Below are positions 1 through 7,601 of a stretch of DNA of 7,601 bases, in pieces. The stretch's first letter is position 1; each line of letters starts with the position of its first letter. Source of the DNA: Acidobacteriota bacterium (GTDB lineage: Bacteria; Acidobacteriota; Terriglobia; UBA7540); contig JAKASH010000132.1 of the NCBI GenBank assembly GCA_021828225.1, forward strand, positions 1-7,601. The letters run 5' to 3'. The notes below the pieces were generated by a model. The model was given only the letters and a program-made list of their open reading frames with translations. It was not told the DNA's origin and ran no database searches. Made by a program: the position numbers and the translations under genes.

Positions 1-356
1 AGCCTTTCCACACCCTGAGCAAAGTTAGCAGGCTATTCCCGCACGGTCCTTCACTATTGAAAAGGATTTGACACTTTGCCGATTATGAGGCAAAACTCTA
101 AGCTATATGGCAATAGCAGGGGAAGCTAGGTAGTCTTACCTGCATTGCATCCGCATCTCGCCGGAATGCTGATAAAGCAGAGAACTAAACCCGGGTCAGC
201 TAGCCGGCTGCAAGGTAGTCAAATGTCATCCAAGAGCCGAGCCCGTTTCGCTGGACTCTCCACCAGCCTCCCTATTTTGTTACTCCGTGATTACCATCAC
301 TGCAACGACATCAGGATCAGGATGAAAATTAGCTGCAGTAGAGGAGGAAATTCTCT
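1..356. other. Upstream non-coding region of the stressosome operon
   Basis: No convincing gene lies here. A 77-residue open frame starting with TTG at 145 runs into rsbR but has a random-looking composition, with no motif and no ribosome site. A perfect TTGACA stands at 68-73, but the bases 16-19 nt downstream (around CAAAACT) are a poor -10 box, so it is only a weak promoter candidate. A small stem (AGGTA 128-132 with TACCT 137-141, loop GTCT) could form in the leader. The operon promoter is presumably somewhere in this stretch, but it cannot be placed with confidence. Confidence 0.5.
342..347 (+). promoter_or_regulatory. Ribosome binding site of rsbR
   Basis: A perfect AGGAGG lies 9 nt before the ATG at 357. 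It fixes the start of rsbR and is the strongest Shine-Dalgarno sequence in the operon, as expected for its first gene. Confidence 0.8.
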
Positions 357-1259
357 ATGTCCGCGGTCAGGAGATTAGCCATAAGCCCTCAGCCACGATA
401 CGAAAACTCTTCGGTATTACCCGAACTTGTAGCTCACCTGCGCGAAAACAGAACTCAGCTCCGCGAGGAATGGGCCCACCGCATAACACAAGCGGAATTG
501 TTAACGGCAATGACCAAAGAGGAGATTTTTGCCGAGGCCACTTCCATTTATGACAATTATGTCAACGTCCTGGAAACCGGCGCAGTTGAGGCGCTGCAGG
601 CCTATGCCCGTAATCTCTCTGAGCGAATCATTCCTCGTGGCGTGGAAACTCACGAAGTAGTCAGGATTGTCCTTCTCCTGCGCGACGTGCTCGCACGGGC
701 GCTGTTTAAGAAATACCAGGCGGATTTTGCGTTGCTCAACCGTGTACTGGACGCGTACGAACCCGCCGCCAATCGAATTGCCGTCACGGTAGCCGTGGGT
801 TTTGCTCAGGAGCGCGAGAGGGTCATCCACGAACAGCAGGAGGCTATCAGAGAACTATCCACACCGGTCCTGCCTGTGCGCGAGGGACTTCTCATCCTGC
901 CCATCGTCGGCGTAATCGATCCGCAGCGAGCGCGCAACTTGACGGGGCAACTCCTGCAAGGCATCCGCGCCAATCGCGCCAGGGTGGTTGTCATTGACAT
1001 TACCGGCGTTCCTTCTATCGACTCGACTGTTGCCAACCATCTTGTCCAGACGGTCGAGGCAGCACGACTGTTGGGCGCAACGGCGATTGTGACAGGGTTG
1101 TCCCCCGAAATTGCCCAAACGTTGGTCACAATTGGTGTAGACCTGACCAAGATGAAAACTGTCTGTGACCTGCGCGGTGGAATCGAACAAGCGGATCGCG
1201 CGCTGGGTTACAGAGTCACCCGGAGGGAGGAATCTTCGCGCCAACAGAAAGGCAGGTAG
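357..1259 (+). CDS. rsbR: RsbR-type stressosome sensor / RsbT co-antagonist with C-terminal STAS domain
   Basis: This 300-residue protein should be the sensory scaffold of a stressosome, the large cytosolic RsbR-RsbS complex that sequesters the kinase RsbT. Residues about 20-160 form an all-helical N-terminal domain of the RsbR/RsbRD type (hydrophobic heptads and a charged linker QERERVIHEQQEAIREL). Residues about 165-285 are the STAS domain, with hallmark strings VVVIDITGVP (210-219), VANHLVQ (225-231) and GLSPEIAQTLV (247-257). Compared from memory with Bacillus subtilis RsbRA, the phosphorylated T205 corresponds to S223 in the IDS motif, whereas the T171 site corresponds to P189 (GVIDPQRAR). 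One of the two regulatory phosphosites therefore appears to be missing and the other is serine. The signal sensed cannot be told from the sequence. The gene is the first of the operon, with a strong ribosome site, and rsbS starts 3 nt after its stop. Family assignment is secure; the subtype is less so. Confidence 0.93.
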   Translation: MSAVRRLAISPQPRYENSSVLPELVAHLRENRTQLREEWAHRITQAELLTAMTKEEIFAEATSIYDNYVNVLETGAVEALQAYARNLSERIIPRGVETHEVVRIVLLLRDVLARALFKKYQADFALLNRVLDAYEPAANRIAVTVAVGFAQERERVIHEQQEAIRELSTPVLPVREGLLILPIVGVIDPQRARNLTGQLLQGIRANRARVVVIDITGVPSIDSTVANHLVQTVEAARLLGATAIVTGLSPEIAQTLVTIGVDLTKMKTVCDLRGGIEQADRALGYRVTRREESSRQQKGR

Positions 1260-1262
1260 CCC

Positions 1263-1643
1263 ATGCTGGTCCCGATTCTCAAGCAGGGACAATACTTGAT
1301 CGCTTCCTTGCAGGCAGCCTTGAGGGACGCTGACCTGGTCAAACTCCGGGATGCGCTGACAGAACAAGTCGGCACTCACCGTTCCAGCGGCGTCATCATC
1401 GACCTCACAGCGCTCGATGTCCTCGACTCCTTCGCCTGCCGAATTCTGGCTGATATCGCCAATATGGTCAGATTGCGTGGGGCAGAAACGGTGATTGTGG
1501 GGATTCAGCCCGAGGTAGCTTTTTCAATGGTTCAATTAGGACTCAGATTGGATGGTGTAGCAACGGCGCTCGATCTGGAAGAGGGTCTTGAGTACATGAA
1601 ACGCAGAACTGGACGGATCACGCATGACTGTTATCCGAGATGA
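1263..1643 (+). CDS. rsbS: RsbS, stressosome core STAS protein (RsbT antagonist)
   Basis: This 126-residue protein is a single STAS domain and the expected second building block of the stressosome. RsbS binds RsbT directly and releases it when RsbT phosphorylates one serine. The phosphosite motif is intact: GVIIDLTALDVLDSF places S56 at the position of B. subtilis S59. Other family strings are VIVGIQPEVAFSMVQLGL (77-94) and TALDLEEGLE (101-110). The length is close to the family norm of about 120 residues, with a short basic extension RRTGRITHDCYPR at the C-terminus that overlaps the next gene. The start at 1263 follows the rsbR stop by 3 nt and has a modest AGGCAGG ribosome site inside the rsbR end, so translation is probably coupled. 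The order rsbR-rsbS-rsbT-rsbX is the classic stressosome order, which makes the call very safe. Confidence 0.95.
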   Translation: MLVPILKQGQYLIASLQAALRDADLVKLRDALTEQVGTHRSSGVIIDLTALDVLDSFACRILADIANMVRLRGAETVIVGIQPEVAFSMVQLGLRLDGVATALDLEEGLEYMKRRTGRITHDCYPR

Positions 1644-2034
1644 GATCCGGGTGCCCATCGGCACCGATGACGACATCCTTATTGCGCGACAGAAGGGACG
1701 AGAACTGGGGATCCGTTTAGGATTTGGGCCGTCGGATCTGGCGGTGATCGCAACAGCCATTTCGGAATTGGCGCGGAACATCCTGGTTTATGCAAGAAGC
1801 GGAAACATTATCTGCTGGCCTATTGAGAGAGGAACAAAAAAGGGGATTGTCATACAAGCCATCGATGAGGGCCCTGGCATTCCGAACATTGAAGTCGTTT
1901 TGAGGGACGGCTATTCCACCTCCGGCGGCCTGGGTCTTGGCTTGCCGGGCGTGCGACGGCTGATGGACGAGTTTGCAATCGTTTCCCGCAAGGATCGCGG
2001 GACTACGGTGACCGCAATCAAGTGGAAGGAATGA
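1624..2034 (+). CDS. rsbT: RsbT, stressosome serine/threonine kinase (switch protein)
   Basis: This 136-residue GHKL-fold kinase (the ATPase fold of anti-sigma factors and histidine kinases) should phosphorylate RsbR and RsbS and then leave the complex to activate an output partner. The ATP-binding motifs are visible: N-box ISELARNIL with E48 and N52, the G1 box DEGPGI (81-86), and the glycine-rich lid GGLGLGLPG (101-109). Length and motif spacing match B. subtilis RsbT (about 133 residues). The gene overlaps the end of rsbS by 20 nt, and its stop overlaps the ATG of rsbX at 2031 as ATGA, both signs of translational coupling. In B. subtilis the output partner is the RsbU N-terminal domain; here the best candidate is the histidine kinase two genes downstream, which carries a similar domain. 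The partner is inferred; the kinase identity is clear. Confidence 0.95.
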   Translation: MTVIRDEIRVPIGTDDDILIARQKGRELGIRLGFGPSDLAVIATAISELARNILVYARSGNIICWPIERGTKKGIVIQAIDEGPGIPNIEVVLRDGYSTSGGLGLGLPGVRRLMDEFAIVSRKDRGTTVTAIKWKE

Positions 2035-2639
2035 ATTCATACATCGTCGAGTGGGGAGTGGCGGCGAAACAGATGCCCGGAGAGAGCATATGCGGTGACC
2101 TGCATCTGGTCAAGCCGGTTGATAAAGGTGTGCTGGTTGCCGTCGCTGACGGGCTGGGACACGGAAAACCGGCTGCCGAAGCTGCAGAACTCGCCATAGA
2201 CGTGGCAGCGCAGTGTGCGTACGAGCCGCTGATTCGAGTGCTTGAGCATTGCAATCAGAGATTGAGCCGGACACGCGGAGCCGTAATGAGCCTCGCATTC
2301 TTCAACGCACTGGACAGCACCATGGCATGGTTGGGCGTGGGCAATGTTGAAGGCTTGCTGATGCGCCCGGTATTGGACGGGAAACACATCGATGAGTCCC
2401 TGGTGTTATCTGCGGGAGTCGTCGGAGTTCGGCTCCCACCCCTGCGCGCCGCTGTCCTGCAGATTGCTCCTCGAGATACACTTATTTTTGCAACTGACGG
2501 TATCCGGCCTGGATTCGAAGACACTGTAAATCTTTCCCAGGCGCCTGACAAGACCGCACAGGGTATCCTTGCACGCGACTGTCTGGGGACAGATGATGCC
2601 CTAGTGCTTGTCGCCATCTATCGAGGGAGGCCGCAATGA
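2031..2639 (+). CDS. rsbX: RsbX-like PP2C-type phosphatase (stressosome reset)
   Basis: This protein of about 202 residues is a minimal PP2C/SpoIIE-fold serine/threonine phosphatase. RsbX removes the phosphates that RsbT puts on RsbS and RsbR, returning the stressosome to its resting state. Metal-binding and fold motifs are present: CGDLHLV with D23, VAVADGLGHG with D40, the TRGAVMSL strand (81-88), FATDGI with D156, and DDALVLVAIY with D188 and D189. The length fits RsbX (about 200 residues) and is too short for RsbU, whose extra N-terminal partner-binding domain is absent. I chose the ATG at 2031 because it overlaps the rsbT stop as ATGA. An in-frame GTG at 2022 would add three residues (MEG) and is possible; the purine stretch GGAAGGA lies unusually close to the ATG. 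The downstream kinase gene also begins in a 4-nt ATGA overlap. Confidence 0.9.
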   Translation: MNSYIVEWGVAAKQMPGESICGDLHLVKPVDKGVLVAVADGLGHGKPAAEAAELAIDVAAQCAYEPLIRVLEHCNQRLSRTRGAVMSLAFFNALDSTMAWLGVGNVEGLLMRPVLDGKHIDESLVLSAGVVGVRLPPLRAAVLQIAPRDTLIFATDGIRPGFEDTVNLSQAPDKTAQGILARDCLGTDDALVLVAIYRGRPQ

Positions 2640-3964
2640 CAGCCAGCAATGCCGAATTTATCGGCCGCTACGCTTCAGCCTTGCAGACCTACCTGGAGAG
2701 AACTGACGAAGCAGCCTTGGCGGAAGCTTATGAACTCGGTCGCGGGGCGCTGGGGCAGGAGATCAGTGTCCTCGAAATGGTCAGCCTGCATTGCGAAGCA
2801 CTCGACCAGGCTCTCTCCCACATGTCTGGCCGCAAGGCTCTTCAGGGGATCATGAGATCCGCCCAGAGATTTCTGATCGAAAGTCTCACCCCTTACGAAA
2901 TGACGATCAGCGGCTATCGGGAGACCAATCGAGCGCTGCAGGCCAGCGAGGAACGTTATCGTGAGCTGTTCGAAAACGCCAACGACATCATCTTCACCAC
3001 GGACTCCGAAGGGAGGCTCACTTCAATCAACAGGGCCGGTGAAAGAATCACTGGCTATTACCGGGATGACCCTCCGCCAATCCCTTCCGACGTCGTGGTG
3101 TTGGAGAATTTTGAGCTGGCGGTCAGGCTGTTTGACCAGCTCATGGCCGGAGGCGATCCCATAACGCACGAATTCTCAATTCTGACCAAAGATGGGCGCC
3201 CCGTTACAGTAGAAGTGAGCGCCCGTCCGATTCTCCAGGAGGGGAAACCAGTGGGCGTCCAGGGTATTGCCCGCGACATCACTGAGCGCAAACGTGCCGA
3301 GCAGGCCTTGCACCGGCTCAACGAAGCTCTCGAAGAACGTGCCCGGCATATTGCGCACGAGCTTCATGACGAGGCGAGCCAGCTCCTGGTGTCGGTCCAT
3401 ATTGCCCTCGATGGATTAGCTCGTGATCTGCAGCCTTCCGGCCAGCAGACCATCCAGGACATTAAGGAGCTGATCGAACAGATTGAAGCTGAATTGCGCC
3501 ATCTTTCCCATGAATTGCGTCCGACCATCCTGGACGATCTGGGCCTGCTTCCGGCCGTGGAGTTCCTTGCCCAGGGCGTCTCGAAGCGGTTTGGAATTCC
3601 CATCACGGTCGAGGGAATCGCCGAAGGTCGACTTTCGCCCCAAGCGGAAGTTGCCTTGTACCGTATCGCACAAGAGGCTCTGAACAATACCACAAAGCAC
3701 GCGAGAGCCACGCACGCGTGGATTCGGCTGGAGAGGGAGAACGACAAGGTCCGTTTGACAATTGCCGACGACGGCGTCGGCTTTGATATCCAGTCCGTTT
3801 TGGGTCAAAAAGGAAGGCCGGGACTCGGATTGATCGGCATGAGAGAACGGCTGATTCCCTTGCATGGAGAGTGTATGATTAGTTCCAGTCCTGGCAAAGG
3901 TACGGAAATCTCAGTTTTAGTTCCATCGGAGGGCAAAGATGCCTACTCGTATCCTTCTGGCTGA
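2636..3964 (+). CDS. Sensor histidine kinase with RsbU-like N-terminal domain, PAS, HisKA_3 and HATPase_c
   Basis: This 442-residue soluble kinase has no membrane segment. Residues 1 to about 95 are helical and resemble the RsbU N-terminal domain that RsbT binds (AYELGRGAL at 31-39, SVLEMVSLHCEAL at 44-56). Residues about 104-218 are a PAS domain (YRELFENANDIIFTTD, then a C-terminal DITERKRAEQ linker). Residues about 219-238 are a short coiled coil. HisKA_3 follows with the HELHDEASQLL motif, where H244 is the expected phosphoacceptor, then the LSHELRPTILDDLGLLPAVE helix. The HATPase_c domain has an N-box (RIAQEALNNTTKHA, N350/N351), a G1 box (DDGVGFD, 378-384) and a G2 box (GLGLIGMRER). All catalytic motifs look intact. 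The kinase should autophosphorylate and pass phosphate to the adjacent regulator, whose gene it overlaps by 26 nt. The RsbU-like domain, in the position where rsbU often stands, suggests direct activation by RsbT; this partner is inferred. Confidence 0.92.
   Translation: MTASNAEFIGRYASALQTYLERTDEAALAEAYELGRGALGQEISVLEMVSLHCEALDQALSHMSGRKALQGIMRSAQRFLIESLTPYEMTISGYRETNRALQASEERYRELFENANDIIFTTDSEGRLTSINRAGERITGYYRDDPPPIPSDVVVLENFELAVRLFDQLMAGGDPITHEFSILTKDGRPVTVEVSARPILQEGKPVGVQGIARDITERKRAEQALHRLNEALEERARHIAHELHDEASQLLVSVHIALDGLARDLQPSGQQTIQDIKELIEQIEAELRHLSHELRPTILDDLGLLPAVEFLAQGVSKRFGIPITVEGIAEGRLSPQAEVALYRIAQEALNNTTKHARATHAWIRLERENDKVRLTIADDGVGFDIQSVLGQKGRPGLGLIGMRERLIPLHGECMISSSPGKGTEISVLVPSEGKDAYSYPSG
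3928..3933 (+). promoter_or_regulatory. Ribosome binding site of the LuxR-type regulator, inside the kinase gene
   Basis: GGAGGG lies 5 nt before the ATG at 3939 and inside the 3' end of the kinase gene. It supports this start and hence the 26-nt overlap of kinase and regulator. Confidence 0.6.
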
Positions 3965-4571
3965 CGATCATCAAATGGTGCGGCAGGGGCTGAAAGCTAT
4001 TCTTGAGCAGGAAGGCTTCAAGGTCGTCGGAGAGGCCGCGAACGGCCACGAAGCTACCAGATTGGCTCAGGAATTGGCTCCCGACGTCGCGGTCCTTGAC
4101 TTGGCCATGCCTCTTATGAACGGAATCGGCGCCGCCAAAGCTATTGCTCAGGTCAATTCGGCAACCAAAATCGTCGTCTTGACGATGCACACGGAGGCCC
4201 AGTACGTTCTGGAAGCACTGCGGGCTGGAATCAGGGGCTACGTGCTTAAGAGCCGCGCTGCCTCCGAGCTGGTTCAGGCAATTCGCGAAGTTTCAAGAGG
4301 ATCGACCTTCCTGAGTTCTGATATTTCAGATACGGTTGTCGATGCCTATCTCAATAAGGTCGATGTCCCAAATGATTCCTTAAGCCCACGGGAGCTCCAG
4401 GTCCTCCAGTTGGTCGCTGAGGGGAAAACGACGAAAGAAGTGGCGGCTCTGTTGAACATCAGCGTCAAAACGGCGGAATCACACAGAACGCGGATCATGG
4501 AAAAACTCGATGTTCACGAAACAGCAAGTCTGGTCCGGTACGCTATCCGGCGTGGCCTGGTTCAGCCTTGA
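3939..4571 (+). CDS. NarL/FixJ-family response regulator (receiver + LuxR-type HTH)
   Basis: This 210-residue protein is the expected DNA-binding partner of the upstream HisKA_3 kinase, a pairing typical of the NarL family. The receiver (about 1-125) has all key residues: acidic pair D9/D10, phosphoacceptor D54 in VLDLAMP, T82 in VVLTMH, and K104 in YVLKS. The LuxR-type helix-turn-helix (about 148-206) reads LSPRELQVLQLVAEGKTTKE, then a recognition-helix region with VKTAESHRTRIMEKL. It is the last gene of the tightly packed operon. Its promoter targets are not known; palindromes near 4681, 4733 and 4754 in the following gap are candidates only. Its receiver is clearly a paralogue of the single-domain protein at 4973-5401. 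Confidence 0.95.
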   Translation: MPTRILLADDHQMVRQGLKAILEQEGFKVVGEAANGHEATRLAQELAPDVAVLDLAMPLMNGIGAAKAIAQVNSATKIVVLTMHTEAQYVLEALRAGIRGYVLKSRAASELVQAIREVSRGSTFLSSDISDTVVDAYLNKVDVPNDSLSPRELQVLQLVAEGKTTKEVAALLNISVKTAESHRTRIMEKLDVHETASLVRYAIRRGLVQP

Positions 4572-4673
4572 AAGCATACTGAGGAGATCGCCCGCTACGA
4601 GATGGTTTCTCACCGCACACAACACTGACCGAGTCCACAGGTCTTGCGATGGATCCCACCGTTCCTTCCTCAC

Positions 4674-4688
4674 GATGCAAGTTGCATC
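4674..4688. repeat. 15-bp perfect inverted repeat, possible operator
   Basis: GATGCAA and TTGCATC flank a single central G at 4681. The symmetry is perfect over 7+7 bases. It sits about 35 bp upstream of the -35 box at 4716, close to -71 from the predicted start, a position typical of activator sites. The protein that might bind is unknown; the LuxR-type regulator encoded just upstream is one candidate. Confidence 0.4.
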
Positions 4689-4715
4689 AAGAAACGTTGT
4701 AAGGTTTTTACCGGA

Positions 4716-4745
4716 TTGACCTCTCTCCACTCGCGAGAATAGGAT
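4716..4745 (+). promoter_or_regulatory. Sigma70-like promoter for the receiver-only regulator gene
   Basis: TTGACC (4716-4721) and TAGGAT (4740-4745) are separated by 18 bp, giving a predicted start near 4752 and a leader of about 220 nt before the GTG at 4973. The match is 5/6 for the -35 box and 4/6 for the -10 box, including its most conserved positions. The palindrome CTCGCGAG occupies the spacer and recurs over the predicted start, which adds weight to this being a regulated promoter. It is predicted by eye only. Confidence 0.45.
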
Positions 4746-4759
4746 GAGTGCTCGCGAGA
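4730..4759. repeat. Tandem CTCGCGAG palindromes, possible repressor operators
   Basis: The self-complementary 8-mer CTCGCGAG occurs at 4730-4737 and again at 4751-4758, each followed by A. The repeats are exactly 21 bp apart, two helical turns, so bound proteins would face the same side of the DNA. The first lies between the predicted -35 and -10 boxes and the second over the predicted transcription start, classic repressor positions. As RNA the copies could also pair to an 8-bp stem with a 13-nt loop, but no T run follows. Confidence 0.45.
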
Positions 4760-4882
4760 TGCCCACGCTGTTTCGTGTTAAGGATGGGCGCTTGGCACGT
4801 TCGGCTTGAGTGAAGGTGACGGAGAAACCAAACATCCGGATCTGTGGAGACCGCATGGAACGCGTGTAAAAGTGAGATTTGA

Positions 4883-4914
4883 AAGGCTCTTTAAAGCCTT
4901 CCTGAAAATTCAGG
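4883..4914 (+). other. Two adjacent small hairpins in the leader of the receiver gene
   Basis: AAGGCT (4883-4888) pairs with AGCCTT (4895-4900) around the loop CTTTAA. Directly next to it, CCTGA (4901-4905) pairs with TCAGG (4910-4914) around a 4-nt loop. They lie in the predicted untranslated leader, about 60 nt before the start codon. Neither has a T run, so they are not an ordinary terminator. They may be chance or a translational or stability element. Confidence 0.3.
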
Positions 4915-4972
4915 GGGCGAATAACCCGGTCGTGAGAAAAAGGGGCGTTTCCATGGCCACGGATAGGAAAAC

Positions 4973-5401
4973 GTGCTCAAGCCGCTAATGGCGTTGCGAG
5001 TCCTGCTGGCAGACGACAACGCGCCAGTTCGTCGGAGCCTGAAGGCTCTTCTTGAAAGGGAAGGATTCAAGGTGGTTGTTGAGGCCGCCGACGGAGAGCA
5101 AGCTGTCACGCTCGCCCACAAACATAAACCAGACGTCATCCTCCTTGATCTTTCGATGCCCCGTCTTAACGGAATCGAAGCTGCCCGCCGCATTCACAAG
5201 GCCATTCCCGGGGCGCGAACAATTATCCTGACCGTACACCGCGATTACCACTACATTGTCCAGGCCCTGGAAGCGGGCGTCAGCGGCTATATTATTAAGG
5301 CGCGCGCAACCCAGGATCTGGCCAAAGGCGTTCAGCAGGTCGCCGAGGGCAAACTCTTCCTCAGCCAGGGACTTCCGCAGGAACTCGTCCAGAACGTTTA
5401 A
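4973..5401 (+). CDS. Single-domain (receiver-only) response regulator
   Basis: This protein of about 142 residues is a complete receiver domain with no output domain. Key residues are intact, numbered from the GTG: acidic pair D14/D15, phosphoacceptor D59 in LLDLSMP, T87 in IILTVH, and K109 in YIIKA. It is plainly a paralogue of the receiver of the LuxR-type regulator upstream (shared LLADD, EGFKVV, LNGI/MNGI and FLS strings). It stops where that protein's linker to the helix-turn-helix begins; the downstream frame contains no HTH remnant. The start is uncertain: GTG 4973 has AGGA 4 nt upstream, while ATG 4988 aligns with the start of the paralogue (MALRVLLADD) but has no ribosome site. It could be a phosphate sink or shuttle for the stressosome kinase, act by protein-protein contact as CheY-like proteins do, or be a domain-loss product on the way to decay. 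The intact active site favours function. Confidence 0.88.
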   Translation: MLKPLMALRVLLADDNAPVRRSLKALLEREGFKVVVEAADGEQAVTLAHKHKPDVILLDLSMPRLNGIEAARRIHKAIPGARTIILTVHRDYHYIVQALEAGVSGYIIKARATQDLAKGVQQVAEGKLFLSQGLPQELVQNV

Positions 5402-5446
5402 GAAACCTTCCACCCGAAGTGAAGCCTGTCGCAACTGCCTTCACAA

Positions 5447-5466
5447 CCCGAGTGGCGGGAATTTTT
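5447..5466 (+). terminator. Weak terminator-like hairpin after the receiver gene
   Basis: CCCG (5447-5450) pairs with CGGG (5456-5459) around a 5-nt loop, followed by AATTTTT. The stem is only 4 bp, all G-C, and the T run is short, so this is a marginal intrinsic terminator. Its place 45 nt after the stop codon and before a new promoter is reasonable. Confidence 0.3.
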
Positions 5467-5558
5467 CCTCTCTTCACCTATGTCAGGAATCGATGTCTAA
5501 ATCACGATAACCGCTTCTTTGCGAAAAGCCCCTGGCGCCTCATTGAGACGAAATATAG

Positions 5559-5587
5559 TTGAAGAACATTGGCAGATTGTGCATAAT
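5559..5587 (+). promoter_or_regulatory. Sigma70-like promoter for the CADD-type gene
   Basis: TTGAAG (5559-5564) and CATAAT (5582-5587) are spaced by 17 bp, matching the consensus at 4/6 and 5/6. Transcription should start near 5594, giving a leader of about 60 nt. This also argues against the upstream in-frame TTG at 5559 as the translation start, because that TTG would be part of the -35 box. Confidence 0.55.
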
Positions 5588-5641
5588 CGACGGTTTCAAC
5601 GAACGTTACCGGCGCACCTGTCTCTCAAAAATATTTCGCAG

Positions 5642-5648
5642 AAGGAGA
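5642..5648 (+). promoter_or_regulatory. Ribosome binding site deciding the TTG start of the CADD-type gene
   Basis: AAGGAGA lies 6 nt before TTG 5655, near-optimal spacing. No such site precedes the upstream in-frame TTG at 5559, so the gene start should be moved to 5655. Confidence 0.7.
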
Positions 5649-5654
5649 ATTCGA

Positions 5655-6335
5655 TTGAACATCACGGCCGGCACCATCGACCATATTGACGCCCGCATCG
5701 CGGAACGGAACCTGCTTCTCCATCCCTTCTACCAGGCATGGACGCGGGGGGAATTGCCGCAGCCCTCGCTGCGCGATTATGCTCAACAGTATTACCATCA
5801 CGTTGCAGCATTCCCCACTTATCTTTCGGCGCTTCACGCGCACACCGACGACCTGCAAGTCCGGCGGCACATTCTGGCCAACTTGATGGACGAGGAAGCC
5901 GGCAATCCCAATCATCCGGAACTCTGGCTCCGTTTTGCGGAAGCCACGGGCCTCAGCCGTGAGGAGGTCACCAACGCTGAACTGTGGACCGAAACCGAAA
6001 ATCTGATCCGGACATTCCGCTTGGTGTGCCGCGTCGGAAGCGTGGCCCAGGGGCTTGCTGCGCTCTACGCTTATGAATCTCAGATTCCCAAAGTCGCGGA
6101 GTCGAAAATTGAAGGTCTCGAGAGTTTTTATGGTATGAGCAGCCCCGACGCCCTCGCCTATTTTCGCGTCCATATTGAAGCCGACCGTGAGCACTCGCGA
6201 GTCGAGCGGGAACTACTCGAATCCACTTTAGAATCCAACGACTCCCGCGACGTCGTTGAGGCAGTTGATACCGTACTGAACTCGCTTTGGGGCTTACTCT
6301 CGGGTGTCTGCTGGCGCCACGGCATCGAGTGCTAG
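5655..6335 (+). CDS. CADD-type TenA/PqqC-fold diiron protein, probable p-aminobenzoate (folate) synthesis enzyme
   Basis: This 226-residue helical-bundle protein closely resembles Chlamydia CADD and related 'folate metabolism' proteins such as that of Nitrosomonas. Known members make p-aminobenzoate from their own tyrosine using oxygen and a dinuclear metal site, replacing the PabABC route. Nearly the whole length matches the family from memory: YAQQYYHHVAAFPTYLSALH (42-61), NLMDEEAGNPNH (76-87), ALYAYESQIPKVAESKI (136-152), AYFRVHIEADREH (168-180). Likely metal ligands are E80 or E81, H87, E141, H173, D177 and H180. The implicated tyrosines (Y26, Y42, Y140, Y169) and lysine (K151) are all kept, offset by one from the chlamydial numbering as I recall it. 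The start is TTG 5655 with AAGGAGA 6 nt upstream. The open frame reaches back to 5559, but that extension overlaps the promoter and does not look like the family. A TenA-like thiaminase or PqqC role is less likely. Confidence 0.88.
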   Translation: MNITAGTIDHIDARIAERNLLLHPFYQAWTRGELPQPSLRDYAQQYYHHVAAFPTYLSALHAHTDDLQVRRHILANLMDEEAGNPNHPELWLRFAEATGLSREEVTNAELWTETENLIRTFRLVCRVGSVAQGLAALYAYESQIPKVAESKIEGLESFYGMSSPDALAYFRVHIEADREHSRVERELLESTLESNDSRDVVEAVDTVLNSLWGLLSGVCWRHGIEC

Positions 6336-6395
6336 TGCGGCGGCAACTCATTAAATACCTGCACTCGTACAATAACATTCGTCAAAAAAGTCCGC

Positions 6396-6410
6396 TGTGA
6401 GTTTCTCACA
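6396..6410. repeat. Perfect TGTGAG-TTT-CTCACA palindrome
   Basis: TGTGAG and CTCACA flank TTT. The halves resemble CRP/FNR-type half-sites (TGTGA and TCACA), but the inner spacing is 5 rather than 6 bp. As RNA it makes a 6-bp stem with a 3-nt loop about 60 nt after the stop of the CADD-type gene, without a T run. Confidence 0.35.
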
Positions 6411-6456
6411 TCAGACCTCGGTTCCAACCAGGACTACGTTTCATCAAACCTCAGTT
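6409..6456. repeat. Short imperfect direct repeat, 33-bp period
   Basis: CATCAGACCTCGGTT (6409-6423) recurs as CATCAAACCTCAGTT (6442-6456), 13 of 15 bases identical. A third copy is not evident. It may be a decayed minisatellite or chance. Confidence 0.3.
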
Positions 6457-6479
6457 TGGCACCCCAAGGTACGCCGGCT

Positions 6480-6507
6480 GTGCCTCGGGATCTCTACTCC
6501 CAGGCAC
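6480..6507. other. Strong 10-bp stem-loop with one bulged C
   Basis: GTGCCT (6480-6485) and GGGA (6487-6490) pair with TCCC (6498-6501) and AGGCAC (6502-6507); C6486 is bulged and the loop is TCTCTAC. The ten pairs, mostly G-C, make this the most stable local hairpin in the window. No T run follows, so it is not a simple terminator. A smaller stem, GCGCC/GGCGC with loop TTT, follows at 6523-6535. A structured RNA or part of a mobile-element end is possible. Confidence 0.4.
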
Positions 6508-6646
6508 TATCTTCAGTGCGAAGCGCCTTTGGCGCCTTATGCTGGCAGGCGTAGTTGGGCCCGCGACAATACGACGCTCCGTCAACCTCGCAACAAAGGG
6601 GAAAAGCTCTTATCATCTAGAAAACAAATGTCGTTGATGTCCGGGA

Positions 6647-6717
6647 TGACAGTTTATGACCCGAGTGACATTTTTTGACGTGGGGGTAGAGGCATGGTGA
6701 CAGAAAGTGGCATGACA
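6647..6717. repeat. Cluster of TGAC repeats, possible insertion-sequence end remnant
   Basis: TGAC starts at 6647, 6657, 6666, 6676, 6698 and 6713, always in the same orientation; the first four are spaced 9-10 bp, about one helical turn. Four of the six extend to TGACA. Repeated TGTCA/TGACA blocks of this kind occur at ends of some insertion sequences, where transposase binds several sites. No transposase gene or second end is in the window, so a solitary decayed end or a protein-binding array are both possible. Confidence 0.35.
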
Positions 6718-6855
6718 AACAAAAGACACCACTCCTCCCTTCCTCGGCCAACAAATATCCGGCGCTCAACGCTATACTCCAAATCCAGTCTCCGACCCAT
6801 CCAAAGCCTGCCAAATTAAGGGCGCCAGTTTTCAACAGGCTCCACCAGCAACTGG

Positions 6856-7503
6856 TCAGAACATCTCTTCATAGGCAGCATTGGGATCAGAGCATCCAGG
6901 GCAGGGCTTGGTGGGATGCTCCGCCGTATAGCCGCACACGTTGCAGACATAGTACAAGTGGCTCTCCGCCGTCATATTTTTAAGGTTCCCAAGAGCAGCT
7001 TTGAACAGTTTCACGTGCTGGATCTCCGCTGTCCGCACATACTGGAAAACTCGCACTGCGTCCGGGTTACCCTCAGCCTTGGCTTCCTCGATAAACGCCG
7101 GGTACAGGGCGTCGCGTTCAGGGGCTTCCCGCAGCTCTGCGGACGACTTGAGGTTTCGCCATGTCGTCTTTGGCACGGGCTGGTCAATCCTGAATGCAGG
7201 TTCAGCGCCCATCTTTCGAATCACAGCAGCAAGGTTTTTAAGGTGAACATGCTCCGCGCACGCGGCGGCGCGAAACAAACTTGCCACTTCACCGTATTCG
7301 TCTTCCTGCGCTCGCTCCGCAAAAGCCAGATAATGCACATAGGCATTCGCCTCGGCGTTGTAAGCCGTCTGCAGATTCTGCAGTGTCTTGCTTTCTTTGG
7401 GCAGAGCAGCAACCAGGGCCAACGATACAAACGCTACAACCGTCAGGCACCCCAGAATTGCCCCCGTTTGCAAGGTTTTGTAATTCAATTCTCGCGTAGT
7501 CAT
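6856..7503 (-). CDS. rbr: Rubrerythrin with N-terminal membrane anchor
   Basis: This 215-residue protein is a rubrerythrin, a diiron peroxidase that reduces hydrogen peroxide using electrons from its own rubredoxin centre. The ferritin-like domain (about 38-172) carries the expected ligands: E51 in AYNAEANAY, E84 and H87 in CAEHVH, E139/E140 and E143 in the FIEEAKAEGN helix, and E160 and H163 in AEIQH. The C-terminal rubredoxin-like part has two CxxC pairs: C187/C190 (YVCNVCGY) and C201/C204 (PCPGC). Unlike ordinary cytosolic rubrerythrins it begins with a charged stretch and a hydrophobic span at about 13-34, so it should be membrane-anchored or exported. C19 is not in a good lipobox and lies too early in the hydrophobic span, so a lipoprotein is less likely. 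The ATG is backed by AGGAGG 7 nt upstream, and the next Met is far inside the fold, so the anchor is real. The gene converges on the CADD-type gene. Confidence 0.93.
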   Translation of the reverse strand: MTTRELNYKTLQTGAILGCLTVVAFVSLALVAALPKESKTLQNLQTAYNAEANAYVHYLAFAERAQEDEYGEVASLFRAAACAEHVHLKNLAAVIRKMGAEPAFRIDQPVPKTTWRNLKSSAELREAPERDALYPAFIEEAKAEGNPDAVRVFQYVRTAEIQHVKLFKAALGNLKNMTAESHLYYVCNVCGYTAEHPTKPCPGCSDPNAAYEEMF

Positions 7504-7510
7504 CTCGATC

Positions 7511-7516
7511 CCTCCT
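7511..7516 (-). promoter_or_regulatory. Ribosome binding site of the rubrerythrin gene
   Basis: On the - strand AGGAGG lies 7 nt before the ATG at 7503. It confirms the start that includes the hydrophobic N-terminal segment. Confidence 0.8.
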
Positions 7517-7561
7517 TTCTCCTTCCCCGGAGGGTCCGGTCAATCGACAATTCCCCTTTTT

Positions 7562-7590
7562 ATTATCTCGAGAACCGGAAAATGTCTCAG
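7562..7590 (-). promoter_or_regulatory. Sigma70-like promoter of the rubrerythrin gene with CTCGAG palindromes
   Basis: On the - strand CTGAGA (7585-7590) and GATAAT (7562-7567) are spaced by 17 bp, matching 4/6 and 5/6. The start should fall near 7555, about 50 nt before the ATG. A TCTCGAGA palindrome (7566-7573) overlaps the edge of the -10 box and the spacer. A perfect GACTCGAGTC palindrome (7592-7601) abuts the -35 box at the window edge. These share the CTCGAG core and could be operators. Confidence 0.45.
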
Positions 7591-7601
7591 TGACTCGAGT
7601 C

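Follow-up and report, generated by a model that had tools for sequence, protein, structure and literature searches.

The window analyzed here is a stretch of 7,601 nucleotides from an Acidobacteriota bacterium (Terriglobia, UBA7540; assembly GCA_021828225.1, contig JAKASH010000132.1, positions 1 to 7,601), in which four stressosome genes are followed on the same strand by genes for a histidine kinase and its response regulator. The gene rsbR (357-1259, + strand) encodes a stressosome co-antagonist with an RsbRD_N-like sensor domain and a STAS domain, rsbS (1263-1643, +) a single-STAS antagonist, rsbT (1624-2034, +) a GHKL switch kinase and rsbX (2031-2639, +) a single-domain PPM feedback phosphatase. 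The histidine kinase (2636-3964, +; 442 residues) has the domain order RsbU_N-PAS-HisKA_3-HATPase_c in Pfam, and the regulator (3939-4571, +; 210 residues) is of the NarL/LuxR type, with a REC and a GerE domain. The gap between rsbR and rsbS is 3 nucleotides, rsbS and rsbT overlap by 20, rsbT and rsbX as well as rsbX and the kinase gene share an ATGA overlap of 4, and the kinase and regulator genes overlap by 26. The list of open reading frames and the Pfam matches thus agree exactly with the gene order, coordinates and junctions of the original prediction, which had been made from the sequence alone. The list also gives a longer GTG start for rsbX at 2022, and Shine-Dalgarno-like stretches are seen by eye upstream of rsbR, rsbX, the kinase gene and the regulator gene. 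That the window holds no sigma factor, RsbV, RsbW or PPM-type RsbU phosphatase, as the prediction also stated, holds for the nine proteins scanned with Pfam in these 7.6 kb, and a scan with Rfam gave no match up to an E-value of 0.1.

The four stressosome proteins were assigned by family profiles and by matches to solved structures. RsbR scores 52.7 bits with STAS and 23.2 bits with RsbRD_N, about 1 bit under the cut-off of 24.3, and its residues 27-282 align to RsbR of the Listeria stressosome at 125 bits; its N-terminus is an RsbRD_N-like helical domain. The RsbR model has a mean predicted local distance difference test score (pLDDT) of 81.8, and its best match is the Listeria complex 7b0u (E-value 6.8e-12), with a template modelling score of 0.44 by query length and a root-mean-square deviation of 8.1. 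RsbS matches Listeria RsbS at 98 bits and keeps the phospho-acceptor serine, Ser56, in a DSF motif. RsbT scores 39.3 bits with HATPase_c; its matches among solved structures are anti-sigma F factors only, at 24 bits, and it is 61% identical to the RsbT-like protein of a region called L001, itself in R-S-T-X order. It has arginine at both positions that we take to be R19 and R23 of B. subtilis RsbT. RsbX scores 39.3 bits with the PP2C-like SpoIIE family and matches the structures of Moorella 3zt9 (58.6 bits) and B. subtilis RsbX 3w40 (55.5 bits). The families of RsbR, RsbS, RsbT and RsbX and their order identify an RsbRSTX module, for which assembly of RsbR and RsbS into a megadalton particle with RsbT bound to it is predicted.

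Two features of the locus go beyond the first account of it, namely a linked receiver-only gene, described below, and an RsbU_N domain (PF08673) at the N-terminus of the kinase. The latter covers residues 11-89 (2666-2902, +), scores 54 bits (E-value 1.9e-14, cut-off 25.5) and is the predicted docking site of RsbT. A profile built from 56 kinase N-domains and three outside sequences matches the N-domain of B. subtilis RsbU at 38 bits; as a single sequence, the kinase gives a weak match to B. subtilis RsbU (E-value 0.34). The AlphaFold2 model of the kinase (mean pLDDT 77.5) has helices at residues 3-21, 25-40, 45-62 and 69-113. These make up an N-domain of four helices, the fourth of which continues without a break up to the PAS domain. 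The fold match lists of this model are taken up by hits to PAS and catalytic domains and hold no entry for the RsbU_N part, so the assignment to RsbU_N rests on sequence profiles. In the same fold search the catalytic part resembles DesK and VraS. With HisKA_3 and HATPase_c in the kinase, and a paired regulator with REC (105.8 bits) and GerE (70.9 bits), the two proteins are predicted to form a NarL-class two-component system. In B. subtilis, RsbU_N dimerises RsbU and binds RsbT, and RsbT activates RsbU through a coiled-coil linker (PMC12143880).

The kinase family is consistent in its architecture. RsbU_N was found in all 56 rows of kinase relatives, the window's own included, and HisKA_3 in 53; one relative, 82% identical, is named as Acidobacteriota, and the named relatives among the best 120 of 8000 RsbR matches belong to Acidobacteriota, Terriglobia or Vicinamibacterales. 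A search for kinase relatives in viral contigs with query P0002 (88% identical to the kinase) found none, and the 1039 kinase matches in plasmid records are all below 60% identity. As a proxy for gene linkage we used exact equality of longest-contig size between protein lists, with sizes shifted by 1-50 as a control. The kinase and RsbR lists share a contig size in 14 of the 56 rows, including the window's own row at 29671 (control mean 0.41, maximum 2), and the kinase and receiver-only lists in 11 (control mean 0.34, maximum 3). Among the 35 kinase rows on contigs of at least 5 kb, 12 match RsbR (again including the window's own), 10 match the receiver-only protein, 17 match either and 18 neither, within lists of the best 120. 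Equal size is strong but indirect evidence for one shared contig. Two kinase-RsbR pairs, at 1614 and 1713 bases, were rejected as chance matches since contigs of that length cannot hold both genes.

In all 35 close full-length rows (window included), and in none of the 19 distant ones, the kinase has a C-terminal tail like EGKDAYSYPSG; two truncated rows were dropped, and the motif was written after the tails were seen. In the window, the DNA of this tail encodes the regulator start MPTRILLADD in another frame. The tail itself is modelled with low confidence, so that its conservation is best put down to the regulator gene that overlaps it, which suggests that the overlap is present in close relatives; we rejected the idea that it is peculiar to the window genome.

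To what extent RsbU_N and RsbT occur together elsewhere was surveyed in three phyla other than that of the window, chosen as the phyla of three genomes reached through RsbT. PF08673 was found above its cut-off in 4 of 297, 9 of 301 and 8 of 198 genomes. Through RsbU_N, and irrespective of RsbT, 22 regions were fetched; hits of the starting genomes themselves were excluded, as was one that scored below the cut-off (L059, which is among the 22, does so too). Regions L001-L007 had been fetched through RsbT and stand outside this set. RsbT lies on the same strand within 6 kb of RsbU_N in 16 of the 22 regions, and the outputs in these 16 are ten histidine kinases, of which L040 and L041 look nearly identical, four PPM phosphatases, one HD-GYP protein and one stand-alone RsbU_N. 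In the one phylum searched with both queries, RsbT was found in 40 of 301 genomes (E-value 1e-10) and in eight of the nine genomes with RsbU_N (Fisher p 4e-7); when the genome chosen through RsbT is dropped, the count is seven of eight (p 3e-6).

The fetched regions, L001-L007 among them, also display other arrangements of the same genes. In six actinobacterial regions of the order T-R-S (L002, L003, L004, L005, L007 and L055), a short RsbU_N frame, 93 residues long in L002, follows rsbS; Pfam detects no output domain in this frame in the four regions scanned, L002, L004, L007 and L055, while in L003 and L005 the RsbU_N frame was identified by search and profile only. Two RsbT-like kinases per cluster were observed in L006, L043 and L038, and the first two have their RsbU_N kinase upstream of rsbR rather than after rsbX. 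A single genome contributes L038 and L039, both with RsbU_N-GAF-HD-GYP proteins, the former in an R-S-T-T-X cluster and the latter with no RsbT found nearby. The Binatia operon of L001 (6599-10236) has an RSTX module with an RsbR whose N-terminus looks globin-sensor-like by eye, and it also encodes an RsbU_N-PAS-PAS protein that is truncated because the contig ends there. The RsbU_N-like domain of this protein was missed by PF08673 and found by the profile of the window's relatives, which has the L001 sequence among its seeds.

Both genes are present in 24 loci, and residues at the presumed contact between the two proteins were compared in an alignment of 19 of these, the window included and L003, L004, L005, L007 and L045 left out. 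The equivalent of RsbT Arg19 is kept in 19 of 19 loci, and the position of Arg23 has arginine in 13, lysine in four and histidine in two. On the RsbU side, the residues implicated in RsbT-RsbU binding include E24, Y28, I74 and I78 (PMC12143880). Glutamate at the position of Glu24 is found in 18 of the 19 loci, and the window kinase has the equivalents of both E24 and I74.

The original prediction read the operon as one signalling machine that runs from stressosome to phosphorelay to transcription. This reading is supported in part. A stressosome-to-two-component pathway is well supported, and on better grounds than gene overlaps, because the kinase has an RsbU_N domain of a kind that is linked to RsbT in most of the surveyed regions; overlaps by themselves are a weak basis, and we set them aside as proof of a single machine. 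From the gene order, domains, conserved residues and linkage observed here, we infer a physical and enzymatic step in which RsbT docks on RsbU_N and switches the kinase, which we consider probable, with activation likelier than inhibition. RsbR and RsbS would form a sensing particle that holds RsbT. Upon a signal, RsbT would phosphorylate RsbS at Ser56 and probably RsbR at Ser223, leave the particle and dock on the kinase, at the dimer of its N-terminal RsbU_N domain. Docking may stiffen or rotate the helix that extends from RsbU_N to PAS, and thereby move the HisKA_3 kinase from one of its two states, kinase and phosphatase, to the other. Phosphate would then pass from it to the NarL-type regulator encoded by the overlapping gene, and probably also to the linked receiver-only protein, while RsbX would dephosphorylate RsbS and RsbR and so reset the particle.

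Several observations weigh against this proposal. In RsbR, Pro189 and Ser223 occupy the sites of what we take to be Thr171 and Thr205 of B. subtilis RsbR, so neither phospho-site has a threonine. In an alignment of the best 120 of 8000 RsbR matches, window included, the first site has proline in 90, serine in 23 and threonine in one, and the second has serine in 103 and alanine in 12; because 90 of the 120 have proline, and because all four families occur in the order of such a module, we do not count these threonines as defining. Two of the RsbU contacts are not kept in the window kinase, where Y28 is replaced by alanine and I78 by threonine. Position 28 is tyrosine or phenylalanine in seven of the 19 loci, paired with isoleucine, methionine or leucine at position 78; in the other 12, the window among them, position 28 is alanine, glycine, leucine, histidine or glutamine and position 78 threonine, serine, alanine or valine, once isoleucine. 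This pattern is compatible with a re-tuned RsbT interface, although it is no proof of one. The kinase model has a predicted template modelling score of 0.40, with pLDDT values of 61-64 in the linker at residues of about 101-120. No RsbT was found in six of the 22 RsbU_N regions (L039, L042, L047, L049, L058 and L059). All ten kinases of the survey are of the HisKA class and none of the HisKA_3 class, and a simple search found no NarL-type regulator nearby on the same strand for any of the ten. Our literature searches brought up no measurement of binding or activity between RsbT and a histidine kinase, and Vibrio RsbT gave no positive interaction with the downstream VvD1, in which no RsbU_N was detected (PMC9237108). 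Furthermore, the PAS domain may supply a signal of the kinase's own, and in the phylum searched with both queries 32 of the 40 RsbT genomes show no RsbU_N, therefore RsbT has other partners too. Both points speak for an alternative in which the two sets of genes only share an operon, with a kinase that reads its PAS signal, a stressosome with another target and a regulator that controls the operon. Against it stand RsbU_N on the kinase and its tie to RsbT across phyla, and we regard such an arrangement as improbable.

An inhibitory sign of the switch would fit the motif His-Asp-x-x-x-Gln of the HisKA_3 domain, formed by His244, Asp245 and Gln249, which are invariant in 53 aligned sequences; this motif is linked to phosphatase activity in NarX-type kinases. 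Docked RsbT might hold the kinase in its phosphatase state, such that stress turns the regulator off. This variant seems rather unlikely, though a serious contender, given that RsbT is an activator of RsbU (PMC12143880). It could also be imagined that RsbT transiently phosphorylates the kinase or the regulator without docking stably on RsbU_N, as has been proposed for downstream kinases without this domain (PMC9237108, section 10). The window kinase has RsbU_N, however, which the same study takes as a strong sign of a link to RsbT, and transient phosphorylation appears very unlikely to us here. We thus favor RsbT docking on RsbU_N as the step that joins the stressosome to the kinase.

About 400 bases downstream of the regulator gene lies a gene for a CheY-like receiver-only response regulator of 137 residues without an output domain (4988-5401, +; alternative GTG start at 4973; REC 102.5 bits). 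Among the best 120 of its 4465 matches, 74 rows, the window's own included, form a compact family of at least 66% identity, and the next 46 are at most 65% identical, with GerE in 39 of them. The acidic pair, the phospho-acceptor aspartate and the lysine are conserved in 75 of 75 aligned sequences, namely the 74 rows and the longer form of the window protein, as is a threonine or serine in 75 of 75. The other 46 rows have no contig size in common with the kinase rows. We infer that the receiver-only protein belongs to the system, as a phosphate sink or a second output. A CheY-like gene has been described beside an RsbR/S/T operon of Vibrio (PMC4976288, 2016). One could go further and suppose a branched pathway peculiar to Acidobacteriota, in which one RsbT-gated kinase feeds two receivers, the DNA-binding regulator of the NarL type and, as phosphate sink or diffusible second output, the receiver-only protein, which would be dedicated to this role. 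This is a tentative idea that we hold to be possible but doubtful; if true, release from the stressosome would act on transcription and, in addition, give rise to a post-translational signal.

Ahead of the receiver-only gene, the perfect palindrome CTCGCGAG occurs twice, with 21 nucleotides from one start to the next (4730-4758, +). The pair lies over a sigma-70-like match (4716-4745) and is a possible operator. The pattern was picked after it had been sighted, 17 of 200 shuffles match it within three mismatches, and neither the single octamer nor the pair goes beyond chance. The scans for promoters (7 against 3.6 expected, standard deviation 1.7) and terminators (7 against 8.5, standard deviation 3.0) are likewise near chance. 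Two further genes were observed downstream: one at 5655-6335 (+) for a putative folate metabolism protein of the CADD family (TENA/PqqC-like; TIGR04305, 288 bits, cut-off 200), and one at 6856-7503 (-), on the strand opposite to the operon, for a rubrerythrin by Pfam with a hydrophobic N-terminal segment seen by eye.

If RsbT docks as proposed, a serine/threonine partner-switching particle feeds a histidine-aspartate phosphorelay at one defined joint. RsbT gating of a histidine kinase has been offered as a model with AlphaFold support (2025 eLife, PMC12143880), and since Pfam detects no membrane domain in RsbT, the kinase, the regulator or the receiver-only protein, the window proteins would make a compact set suited to in vitro study of that proposal. 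In the literature searched we found no study of stressosomes in Acidobacteriota and no paper that mentions stressosome, RsbR and Acidobacteria together; stressosome and Acidobacteria occur jointly in one, a blue-light review (PMC4844311). An earlier mention of the arrangement is possible.

The wiring of a stressosome to an RsbU_N histidine kinase is already known from gene neighborhoods in other bacteria, because RSTX modules with RsbU_N or phosphorelay outputs are described in PMC9237108 and an RsbU_N kinase in PMC12143880. The remark in the original prediction that RsbRST modules occur beside varied outputs, two-component ones included, agrees with section 10 of the former, and the arrangement that it singled out as the standout is thus less unusual than supposed. 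In the work of Heinz et al. (2022; PMC9237108), the RSTX modules have a globin RsbR and eleven downstream architecture types, and the proteins downstream include some with RsbU_N as well as HisKA/REC phosphorelays. The window shares with these the rsbRSTX order, with RsbX directly after RsbT and signalling proteins next; that survey began from globin-coupled RsbR, whereas the window has an RsbRD_N-like RsbR, a HisKA_3-class kinase, a NarL-type regulator and a linked receiver-only protein. The window thus adds a form with non-globin RsbR, a NarL-type pair and a linked receiver-only gene, probably one of Acidobacteriota.

Among the closest systems described is the gammaproteobacterial NreB histidine kinase MBI3545564.1, which has an RsbU N-terminal domain and a proposed control by RsbT through a coiled-coil linker (PMC12143880, legend to Fig. 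5E); in the window kinase, RsbU_N and the core are separated by a PAS domain. Compared to DesK/DesR and VraS, which are of the NarL class, the input of the window kinase is RsbU_N-PAS with no membrane sensor domain by Pfam. With the sigma-B pathway of B. subtilis the locus has RsbU_N, RsbT, RsbR, RsbS and RsbX in common, but its output is a histidine kinase rather than a PPM phosphatase, and RsbV, RsbW and sigma-B are absent from the window. In Moorella thermoacetica, an RsbU N-domain and RsbT control a GGDEF cyclase (Quin 2012, cited in PMC12143880), such that the RsbU N-domain on which RsbT acts is joined to a foreign output, as would be the case here, although the output there is cyclic-di-GMP and not a phosphorelay.

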